Shown: in pieces, positions 50,918 through 53,617 of the stretch
Position numbering within the stretch: position 1 is the first letter of the stretch
Layout of the letters: each line of letters starts with the position of its first letter
Assembly: GCF_003862495.1 (NCBI RefSeq)
Contig: NZ_RRCH01000010.1
Coordinates: forward strand, 1 to 64,000
Direction of reading: 5' to 3'
DNA: 64,000 bases
Source: Halocatena pleomorpha
Lineage (GTDB): Archaea; Halobacteriota; Halobacteria; Halobacteriales; Haloarculaceae
Position numbers and translations under genes: made by a program
Notes under the pieces: model-generated
Told to the model about the DNA's origin: nothing
What the model saw: the letters and a program-made list of their open reading frames with translations, nothing else
Database searches by the model: none

Positions 50918-51988
50918 TCAGTAGACATCATCTTCCACAAACCGTTGAGCGATGCGTTGTGCACCGCGTGCGGCAGCGGTCACCGGTTCCTCGGGCGCGG
51001 TTACTTCGACTTCGTGCTGGAGTTCCTTGCTGAGTCGATCCTCGAATTCTTGAACGAGACCGGGGATGCAAGCCATGCCACCGGTCAGAACGATCGGCTC
51101 CTCTAAGGTTTGCTTGTAGATCTTGATGTATCTGTTCGCCAGTTGAGGAAGGAACTCGTTTGCGATCTCGTTGACGGCCTCATCGACGTACCGATCGAGC
51201 GCGTCGACCACGCTGCGCTCGATCGTGAACTCGTGGGTCCCGCCACCGGGTTGCTGAATGATGTCGGTAAACGGCTGGAAGTTGTTGAAATCGCCGTGTT
51301 CTTCTTTGTACTCTCTCGCCGTGGTCTGATCGATGTTCACCCGGCCCTGGGTTTCTTCCTCGACGTTATTAGCGATCCACCGATCAACCTCGTTGCCGGT
51401 GACCGATCCCGTTGAAAATCCGGACAGCTGTTCACCACGGCGGTAGGCACACGCTTCGAGGTTCGTCGATCCCATGTTGATCGCAATGAAGATCCGCTCG
51501 ATCGCGTTCAACCCGCCGCCGAGCGCCGGAACCGATCCACACAACGACTCCGGATAGCTCCGGATGAGCTGGCTTCCGATGCCACTCTGTTCGATCACTT
51601 CTGCGAGATTCGACAGTCCCCGCTCGTTGTCGATCGTCGGAATGGCGTACACTACAACGCTGTCCTCGGGAACGTTGTTGGCCCGCGCGAATTTGTTGAA
51701 AAACGTCGCAGCGGTTTCGGCTCGTTCGTCGTCCTCAGGCAACCCCGACCGAAGCATGAACTGCACTCGCTCGGGATACTCGTTTGCTGCCTCCTCGCCG
51801 TACACCGCACGGCGTTTCCCTGTTAACACGTCCTGGTACGTCGCTAAACACGTGAGCGTCTCGTGGGTGCGAACGACGTTGCCTTGTGGCTGTACCAGAA
51901 CTGTTCGGGTGCTTCCCAACTTCACACCGACTGGAGTCGGACTCTCTTCGTCTAGTTCTTCCTCTTCGTCCATTTCCTCATCGAGCAT
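50918..51988 (-). CDS. Salactin-type actin homologue
   Basis: A 356-residue actin/MreB-superfamily protein. The ATP-binding core reads VGVKLGSTRTVLVQPQG (phosphate 1), IFIAINMGSTNLEACAYRRG (phosphate 2) and IVLTGGMACIPGLVQEFED (adenosine loop). The rest, for example the QQPGGGTHEF hinge and STGSVTGNEVDRW, matches my memory of Halobacterium salactin, which forms dynamic filaments. The N-terminal acidic stretch (DEEMDEEEELDEE) is an extension. It is convergent with deoxyhypusine synthase and lies 183 nt downstream of a gene with an ArlD/E-type domain. Confidence 0.82.
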   Translation of the reverse strand: MLDEEMDEEEELDEESPTPVGVKLGSTRTVLVQPQGNVVRTHETLTCLATYQDVLTGKRRAVYGEEAANEYPERVQFMLRSGLPEDDERAETAATFFNKFARANNVPEDSVVVYAIPTIDNERGLSNLAEVIEQSGIGSQLIRSYPESLCGSVPALGGGLNAIERIFIAINMGSTNLEACAYRRGEQLSGFSTGSVTGNEVDRWIANNVEEETQGRVNIDQTTAREYKEEHGDFNNFQPFTDIIQQPGGGTHEFTIERSVVDALDRYVDEAVNEIANEFLPQLANRYIKIYKQTLEEPIVLTGGMACIPGLVQEFEDRLSKELQHEVEVTAPEEPVTAAARGAQRIAQRFVEDDVY

Positions 51989-52050
51989 GTTGCTACCCTG
52001 TTTTAGCTCCTGGTACTTAGCATCGTCCGTATGGTCCTGAATTTTTCATT

Positions 52051-52067
52051 GATATATAAATATAACC
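52051..52067 (-). promoter_or_regulatory. AT-rich promoter region of salactin
   Basis: The minus strand reads GGTTATATTTATATATC at 52067-52051, a strong TATA-like run 63-79 nt before the salactin start at 51988. It suggests an own promoter with a short untranslated leader, in addition to possible read-through from the upstream gene. Confidence 0.45.
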
Positions 52068-52171
52068 TATAATATAGAAATATGGGACAGACACGCATTA
52101 CGAAAGGTACGCCGATGATTAATCTCCCTGTTGAAAAGCTGTCCACTGTGACGGACGGCACGGATCACCAC

Positions 52172-53125
52172 TCAGTAGAAGACCATCCCTTCAGCACTGA
52201 GCGAGGCGATTTTAGCGGCGTAGACGAAGTTGAGGAGATGGTCGCCGCGGTCGAACGTGTCGAAGCCATTTCCGTCTCGGTAATCGATCCACTGGAGTCG
52301 TTCTTTGAGTTGTTCGGCCACGGGTTCGGTCATCCAACCGATTTCTCGATACCGATCGAGTGCCTCGGTCGCCCCGTGGGTGCCTGCTTCGAGCGTGAGA
52401 AACTCTAGCCAGTCAGTGATGAACGTCTCGGCTTCGTCGGTGGCCAGCGCCGTGAGATACGGTTTCTCTCCGATCCGTTTGGAATCGATTCCCGCGATCA
52501 TGAGCAATCGCTTTCGCTGTTCTTCGGTCGGATCCTCGACGTGGGTTCGGTGTTGTTCCGGTGGCTCGGACCACACGAATCCGTGTATCTCCGAATCAGA
52601 CAGTGATGAAACAATACTCGTGTCTACACAGTCTGCGATCGTCCGAAGCTCCTCCACTGGATAGTTGATCGGATCAATAACGACGCTGTCAGGGGATTCA
52701 TCACTATCATGGCGCTCAGTAGCCGCCTCTGAAACGGCGGTCGTACCACTGGCGTGGTCCAACTCCGGCGCGTCGTCTCCAGTTGATTCAGCGACAAACT
52801 GAGTGAACACAGCTTCATCGGTAGCGTTGTCACCGATCATAGAGTTTTCCGGCTCCGAATTACGAGACACATTGTGATCGTTATGCAGCGACCCATCCGT
52901 TCGTCGTTCGGTGGGACTGGCCCATTCGAATTGGTCGTTCGGCGTCGTTTCAGCGAGTGGTTCAGTCGACGAGACTGCGTCGGTTTGGGTGGTGGTTCGA
53001 TCGGACGTTTCGGTGTCATCGGCCGTCCAAACGAATCCGTACTCTCGGGATTCAGCGTCTGACGCGTCATCTACGCGCCCATCGTGGGTTTCAGACACGT
53101 CGAAATCGCTCGAATCCACCACCAT
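52172..53125 (-). CDS. Acidic protein with C-terminal ArlD/ArlE (FlaD/E)-type domain
   Basis: A 317-residue protein. The first ~190 residues are acidic, Ser/Thr-rich and probably disordered. The last ~110 residues (KPYLTALATDEAETFITDWL, LEAGTHGATEALDRYREIGW, and DRGDHLLNFVYAAKIASL) have the order of the archaellum accessory FlaD/FlaE domain: Trp-Leu-Glu-Phe helix, alanine-rich helix with Y-x-x-I-x-W, and DDHLxxLxYxAKLA-like C-terminus. No other archaellum gene is in the window. It is upstream of salactin on the same strand. The domain match is from memory. Confidence 0.65.
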   Translation of the reverse strand: MVVDSSDFDVSETHDGRVDDASDAESREYGFVWTADDTETSDRTTTQTDAVSSTEPLAETTPNDQFEWASPTERRTDGSLHNDHNVSRNSEPENSMIGDNATDEAVFTQFVAESTGDDAPELDHASGTTAVSEAATERHDSDESPDSVVIDPINYPVEELRTIADCVDTSIVSSLSDSEIHGFVWSEPPEQHRTHVEDPTEEQRKRLLMIAGIDSKRIGEKPYLTALATDEAETFITDWLEFLTLEAGTHGATEALDRYREIGWMTEPVAEQLKERLQWIDYRDGNGFDTFDRGDHLLNFVYAAKIASLSAEGMVFY

Positions 53126-53244: not shown

Positions 53245-53380
53245 ACGGTATAAGCAATCGATAGCCCAGCAAGACGCCCGATGACGATGACCACGGACTG
53301 AGTCGGACTCGGCACCCGGCAGTGATGAACCCTATGAGTTCCGAGGGAACACTTGTCTACGGACGGATCGACGAGACGGA

Positions 53381-53617
53381 CTACTGCATAACAGAAATCG
53401 CGTCTCGTACACGGTGGAGATCGCCGTCGATGCCTGCTCCTGAACAGTCCTCTGTGGGACATTCATAATGCCAGCCGTCTTTCGTCGCGCGTCGCTCCGG
53501 AAAGCGCTCGCCACAGCATTCACAGAACAGTTGGGCGTCGGTACACGTATCTTGGTGGAGTTCGAGTTCGAGTTTCGTGGCGAACGTCCGCTTGCAGTTC
53601 CTACAGCTGTGAACCAT
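53381..53617 (-). CDS. HVO_2901-type zinc-finger protein
   Basis: A 78-residue protein with a C5-X2-C8-X12-H21-X3-C25 finger (SCRNCKRTF, LELHQDTC), then a second treble-clef-like set with FCECCGERF and YECPTEDC. The pattern and length match the HVO_2901 family of haloarchaeal zinc-finger proteins from memory. Such small proteins often affect growth, biofilm or stress, but this one's role is unknown. Confidence 0.75.
   Translation of the reverse strand: MVHSCRNCKRTFATKLELELHQDTCTDAQLFCECCGERFPERRATKDGWHYECPTEDCSGAGIDGDLHRVRDAISVMQ

Follow-up and report, generated by a model that had tools for sequence, protein, structure and literature searches.

Salactin of Halobacterium salinarum, an actin-like protein, forms filaments that extend from polar foci and show dynamic instability, a behavior known from this species only; what anchors them was not stated (PMC10746226). 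Deletion of the salactin gene (VNG0153C) left motility unchanged and disturbed DNA distribution at low phosphate, and a role in DNA segregation was proposed by its discoverers, who also reported MamK as the nearest actin subfamily (PMC10746226). ArlD belongs to the euryarchaeal switch complex ArlCDE, which binds CheF and ArlH and was proposed to contact the polar cap, whose composition is not known (PMC8978795). Polar foci of ArlD-GFP were observed in Haloferax volcanii (PMC11588486). In this organism, arlD and HVO_1202 form one transcriptional unit, and in a csmR mutant both rise along with all archaellum and chemotaxis units; HVO_1202 is not called an actin there (PMC13286277), and in the literature searched this gene was mentioned solely in that paper. 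In hypha- and spore-forming haloarchaea, the archaellum, CetZ, and PilB3 pili have been lost, while an 'MreB-like' family has expanded (PMC10067837). This family may be salactin, since genomes of the clade carry two to five salactin copies.

Our literature search for a pairing of ArlD and salactin found no paper describing it. Both families are known, and the archaellum-independent ArlD-salactin pair is a new combination of known parts. The salactin paper contained no informative neighborhood because relatives of Halobacterium were examined, in which the link to arlD is seemingly missing. In the other haloarchaea, the gene context is clear and leads to the archaellum.

The two genes of the window

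The window, i.e. the whole stretch of 64,000 nucleotides from Halocatena pleomorpha that was analyzed, is contig C2 of a draft genome (3.65 Mb, 61 contigs, 96.6% complete). Both open reading frames were found at the coordinates of the earlier note, on the minus strand and separated by 183 bp. The locus has the following features:

50918..51988, minus strand: salactin, actin-like filament ATPase, 356 aa with an acidic N-terminal tail (PF25229, NF053533)
52007..52060, minus strand: putative salactin leader with a TATA-like AT-rich stretch (52051-52060) and a block common to five strains, GAAAAATTC...ACGGANGATG...TAAGTACCAGGAG
52172..53125, minus strand: ArlD ortholog with N-terminal extension, 317 aa (PF04659; ArlD clade)
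52196..52522, minus strand: ArlD/E helical domain, residues about 202-310 (match to a clade HMM)
52568..52684, minus strand: ArlD N-terminal linear motif, residues 148-186, VVIDPINYPVEELRTIAD...EIHGFVW, which corresponds in the alignment to NPRDYDLDELRKMA, the beginning of short ArlDs
52685..53125, minus strand: acidic low-complexity N-terminal extension, residues 1-147, special to the clade and absent in short ArlDs
53024..53125, minus strand: second, degenerate motif copy, residues 1-34, MVVDSSDFDVSE...EYGFVW (internal alignment)

The downstream gene encodes salactin, as the earlier note had proposed: its product matched all 335 of 335 positions of the Pfam family Salactin, PF25229 (E 1.5e-183; 609.8 bits, cut-off 27.1), and scored 593 bits against the NCBIfam equivalog NF053533 (cut-off 400). 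It thereby belongs, over its full length, to the same family as the H. salinarum protein. The published context of the latter consists of DNA repair and replication genes with poor synteny (PMC10746226), whereas salactin lies behind arlD in the window and in the majority of genera. A sequence search of the PDB returned no relatives of salactin or of the ArlD protein at useful E-values.

Three salactin genes are present in the H. pleomorpha genome, with the paralogs located on contigs C42 and C14 (L005, L006). These two lack ArlD and have ordinary metabolic neighbors, with siroheme/heme-pathway genes and a DoxX/AsnC neighborhood in their surroundings; the C14 copy has a very long branch in the salactin tree. 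The salactins of the Halocatena/Actinarchaeum group fall into a single clade; slow evolution marks those linked to ArlD, and the additional copies change faster. Upstream of the ArlD-linked copy, an alignment of five strains revealed the conserved leader block 3′ of the TATA-like stretch; this block was not found at the clade's remaining salactin genes. Judged from these sequence elements, salactin in the Halocatena/Actinarchaeum clade may have its own promoter.

For the upstream gene, the earlier note had described an acidic protein on the same strand with a C-terminus resembling the ArlD/E domain in residues 205-317. The domain was recovered there by PF04659 (Arch_fla_DE) at residues 220-307 (E 4.3e-14; 52.7 bits, cut-off 21). 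The likeness goes further than a shared domain. Residues 148-309 align with residues 1-155 of the ArlD of locus L062 (26% identity, E 3e-14), which adjoins arlCE within an archaellum cluster. Within the N-terminal motif, DPINYPVEELRTIAD of the window protein corresponds to NPREYDPEELRSAA of the archaellum-cluster ArlD; P152 is invariant, and E159 and R161 are almost invariant. The ArlDs are set apart from nearly all ArlCE domains by a branch of SH-aLRT 97 in a tree comprising 89 ArlD/E domains; the 65 rows of this branch, which include the window protein, show salactin-adjacent and cluster ArlDs intermixed, in a tree built from few columns and with some long branches of unsure placement. The window domain itself is divergent (branch length 1.33). 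Because of the end-to-end alignment and the place within the ArlD clade, the upstream gene is assigned as an ArlD ortholog that carries an extra N-terminal extension. Alignment and tree also ruled out that the domain is shared with ArlE rather than ArlD. A viral origin was rejected, as a close-relative search of 2.9 million viral contigs gave no relative and no PHROGs family was found.

The structure model of the ArlD protein (mean pLDDT 49.9) reaches moderate confidence in the C-terminal helices only, where helices were predicted, with modest confidence, at residues 229-262, 267-279, and 293-308. The extension mostly has a pLDDT below 50 and is predicted to be disordered; residues 1-145 contain 25% D/E and 5% K/R. 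The putative degenerate copy at its start repeats the motif plus the trailing GFVW. Internal repeats as good were obtained in 0 of 1000 shuffles for the Halocatena marina protein (clear) and in 40 of 1000 for the window protein (marginal), and no second copy was detectable by internal alignment in strain YIM 93972.

The ArlD frame is open in five clade strains, and its residue pattern is conserved. Among these strains, dN/dS was 0.03-0.18 for the ArlD core, 0.29-0.76 for the N-terminal arm, and 0.03-0.05 for salactin, with many dS values saturated; in the two unsaturated comparisons, the core had 0.18 and 0.03 and the arm 0.47 and 0.40. The core is under purifying selection and the arm evolves fast. 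The low core values therefore mark ArlD as a maintained protein in a lineage without archaellum.

Distribution of the pair and its ties to the archaellum

Adjacency of the two genes in many haloarchaea, suggested as a check by the earlier note, was analyzed at salactin loci from 93 genomes, representing all 28 salactin-bearing genera within a sample of 292 Halobacteria genomes. Salactin lies directly 3′ of an ArlD gene on the same strand in 70 of the 93 genomes and 25 of the 28 genera, among them Halohasta, Halorhabdus, Halobellus, Halobaculum, Halocatena, and Actinarchaeum, and the pair is kept in five strains of the Halocatena/Actinarchaeum clade. The median gap is 98 bp, with several 4-bp overlaps. 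Neither of the outcomes that the earlier note named as refuting, adjacency confined to this genome or a lacking ArlD/E profile match, was obtained. At the first 60 mapped loci, ArlD was the neighbor family in 38 cases, followed by CheC with 10. Salactin is apart from arlD in 23 of the 93 genomes, including 8/8 of genus g15. In genomes with the pair, the archaellum clusters L056-L059, L061, and L063 contain ArlCE and no separate ArlD, so the part of ArlD seems to fall to the gene next to salactin in those species.

Profile searches of the 292 genomes identified salactin in 140, the ArlD/E domain in 230, and archaellin in 231. Every one of the 140 salactin genomes carries an ArlD/E domain, and archaellin is present in 137 of them; the co-occurrence of salactin and archaellin gave a Fisher odds ratio of 28 (p 5e-16, not phylogeny-corrected). 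Salactin without archaellin was found only in the window genome (G000), Actinarchaeum halophilum YIM 93972 (G183), and H. marina DFN5 (G277), and exactly these three also have an ArlD/E domain without archaellin. In each of them, the only ArlD/E gene is the one adjoining salactin. Genome-wide searches of the three found no archaellin, ArlJ, or CheF; the ArlJ search returned distant T2SSF proteins only (E 1e-8 to 1e-16), whereas true ArlJ scores below 1e-200. The absence of archaellum genes, previously noted for the vicinity of the pair, thus extends to the whole genome, with a single PF04659 match. The window protein shares with ArlD of H. volcanii the N-terminal motif, the ArlD/E domain, and the clade, but its genome lacks an ArlCE gene, ArlJ, archaellin, and CheF, it bears an extra acidic N-terminal arm with a putative duplicated motif, and its partner gene is salactin. 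A role in an archaellum together with ArlCE, ArlH, and CheF is not borne out by the gene content of the window genome.

Loss of the archaellum was accompanied by loss of salactin in other genomes of salactin-bearing genera, namely G014 and G288 (99% complete) and G184 and G206 (93-94%). Conversely, G219 kept the archaellum and lost salactin, leaving cheD-arlD without it. Salactin is absent from 94 of the 231 archaellated genomes, and archaella therefore do not need it.

Several loci place the pair or its members directly within motility operons. Two loci have two salactins inside the archaellum operon: in L026 the order is cheC-cheD-arlCE-arlF-arlG-salactin-arlCE-arlH-salactin-arlCE-arlH-arlI, and L027 is the same with one fewer arlH resolved. 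The salactins of this genus group with Halovenus in the tree. A segment comprising motor switch and actin is duplicated in these genomes (L026 in G117, L027 in G268), with three ArlCE genes in both loci and two ArlH genes in L026. The order cheC-cheD-arlD-salactin was found in L037 and L038. In L035, L037, and L055 of genus g31, another ArlD/E gene is located ~2.5 kb past salactin, with a histidine-kinase gene on the opposite strand in between.

The salactin of H. volcanii matched PF25229 at E <= 1e-100. Because of this match and the order cheC-cheD-arlD-salactin in other Haloferacaceae, HVO_1202 is, judged by gene order, very probably salactin. The H. volcanii unit consists of arlD plus a single downstream gene, like the window pair, but unlike it belongs to a working archaellum/chemotaxis locus. 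Since most relatives with the pair are archaellated and the pair lies within an archaellum/chemotaxis cluster in several genera, its motility link is real and ancestral.

Outside the haloarchaea, no ArlD/E neighbor of salactin was found in Methanocella-like and Archaeoglobus-like genomes (lineage names inferred). At the Archaeoglobus-like loci, the genes after salactin encode a coiled-coil protein and a MinD/ParA ATPase, at some of these loci also a T2SSF platform protein, and in the Methanocella-like genomes some salactin copies are followed by a prepilin peptidase. As a lead only, these neighbors fit a general tie of salactin to type IV filament machines and polar positioning. The loci L105-L118 (Archaeoglobus-like) possibly represent an undescribed actin-MinD positioning operon.

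Possible functions of the pair

The earlier note had suggested that the two proteins form a polar or segregation apparatus, with the ArlD/E domain as adaptor between the filament and the membrane or pole. A functional pair is supported by the wide adjacency, the survival of archaellum loss, and selection on the ArlD core; a polar location in H. pleomorpha, an adaptor role, and DNA segregation are possibilities. The pair has outlasted the loss of the swimming motor, which points to a role of ArlD with the filament that is independent of this motor, and a functional partnership able to do without the archaellum is in our view quite likely. ArlD is probably the pole-side partner of salactin, presumably binding it, in an old haloarchaeal module that here occurs without an archaellum. 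For an actual pole anchor, the chances are slightly short of even. By this mechanism, ArlD would anchor, nucleate, or regulate salactin filaments at the cell pole and, in swimming relatives, tie the filament to the polar archaellum/chemotaxis hub. In Halocatena and Actinarchaeum, archaellum and CheF have been lost and the pair was retained and remodeled, with ArlD gaining the acidic arm with its second motif copy and salactin becoming duplicated. The extra motif copy could raise the valency of ArlD, and the pair may serve polarity, hyphal growth, or DNA distribution in this motor-less clade. Against this reading stands above all the H. salinarum salactin mutant, which is normally motile and has a defect in DNA distribution, together with the many archaellated species that have no salactin. 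The 23 genomes with the two genes apart and the possible own promoter of salactin in the clade also weigh against it.

That defect and the dynamic instability, both described for H. salinarum with the DNA phenotype at low ploidy (PMC10746226), are what speaks for salactin being mainly a ParM-like chromosome-partition filament, with ArlD as an adaptor to pole or DNA in the clade and a secondary link to the archaellum. We regard this as unlikely, because salactin tracks the archaellum and not DNA genes, occurring without archaellin in only three of the 292 genomes, and because non-haloarchaeal salactin adjoins genes for MinD/ParA, pilus-type T2SSF, or prepilin peptidase. At the locus itself, the search for centromere-like repeats gave only scattered short repeats in two or three copies, mostly within coding regions, and a profile search of the ArlD protein for a DNA-binding domain (up to E 1) matched PF04659 alone. 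The type II plasmid partition system ParMRC has a dynamically unstable actin-like filament, as salactin, but also a ParR-type DNA-binding partner and centromere-like repeats, neither of which is found at the window locus; with no repeat array and no DNA-binding adaptor, a system of this type was rejected. In the magnetosome actin system, MamJ is the acidic tether of MamK. An actin-like filament with an acidic low-complexity partner is thus common to MamK/MamJ and salactin/ArlD, but magnetosomes, to which MamK/MamJ belongs, have no counterpart in the window system.

Shared regulation, i.e. co-expression with polar structures and no physical partnership, would agree with the response of ArlD/HVO_1202 with all archaellum and chemotaxis units in the csmR mutant (PMC13286277) and with lineages in which arlD and salactin are unlinked. 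It is improbable nonetheless: ArlD, with its core conserved, is the sole ArlC/D/E-type gene kept after archaellum loss, right beside salactin, and once the archaellum is lost, co-regulation with it gives no reason for keeping ArlD. The divergent domain and the fast-changing arm could also mark ArlD as a relic from the lost archaellum that persists through a promoter or operon in common with salactin. Such a relic would decay, whereas the frame is open in five strains with a conserved residue pattern and low core dN/dS, making this explanation very improbable. Nothing favors chance adjacency in this genome, and its probability is practically negligible given the pair in 25 of 28 genera.

In a broader version of the polar-partner reading, which we put forward as possible rather than probable, salactin would generally belong to the polar apparatus of type IV filament machines (archaella and pili), maybe as a part of the archaellar polar cap or fixed to it, and ArlD would be the protein by which salactin docks. 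The hypha- and spore-forming clade would then have reused the module, without the motor, for polarity or tips. The pair turns two points into testable questions, namely which factor keeps salactin filaments at the pole and which tasks ArlD has beyond motor switching. The hypha-forming clade offers a natural experiment, as its motor is gone and ArlD and salactin are still together, and if HVO_1202 is salactin, the arrangement is available in the genetically tractable H. volcanii.

Further elements upstream of arlD

A block conserved in five strains is located upstream of arlD at 53276-53348 (plus strand). Against the Rfam C/D-box families, it matched sR41 (E 1.3e-4) and sR-tMet (E 0.0024), both under the curated cut-offs, and it is a possible haloarchaeal C/D-box guide RNA. 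At 53381-53617 (minus strand), a 78-aa open reading frame contains paired cysteines and a C2H2-like CxxC...HxxxxC pattern, CRNCKRTFATKLELELHQDTC, and possibly encodes an unannotated small zinc-finger protein.
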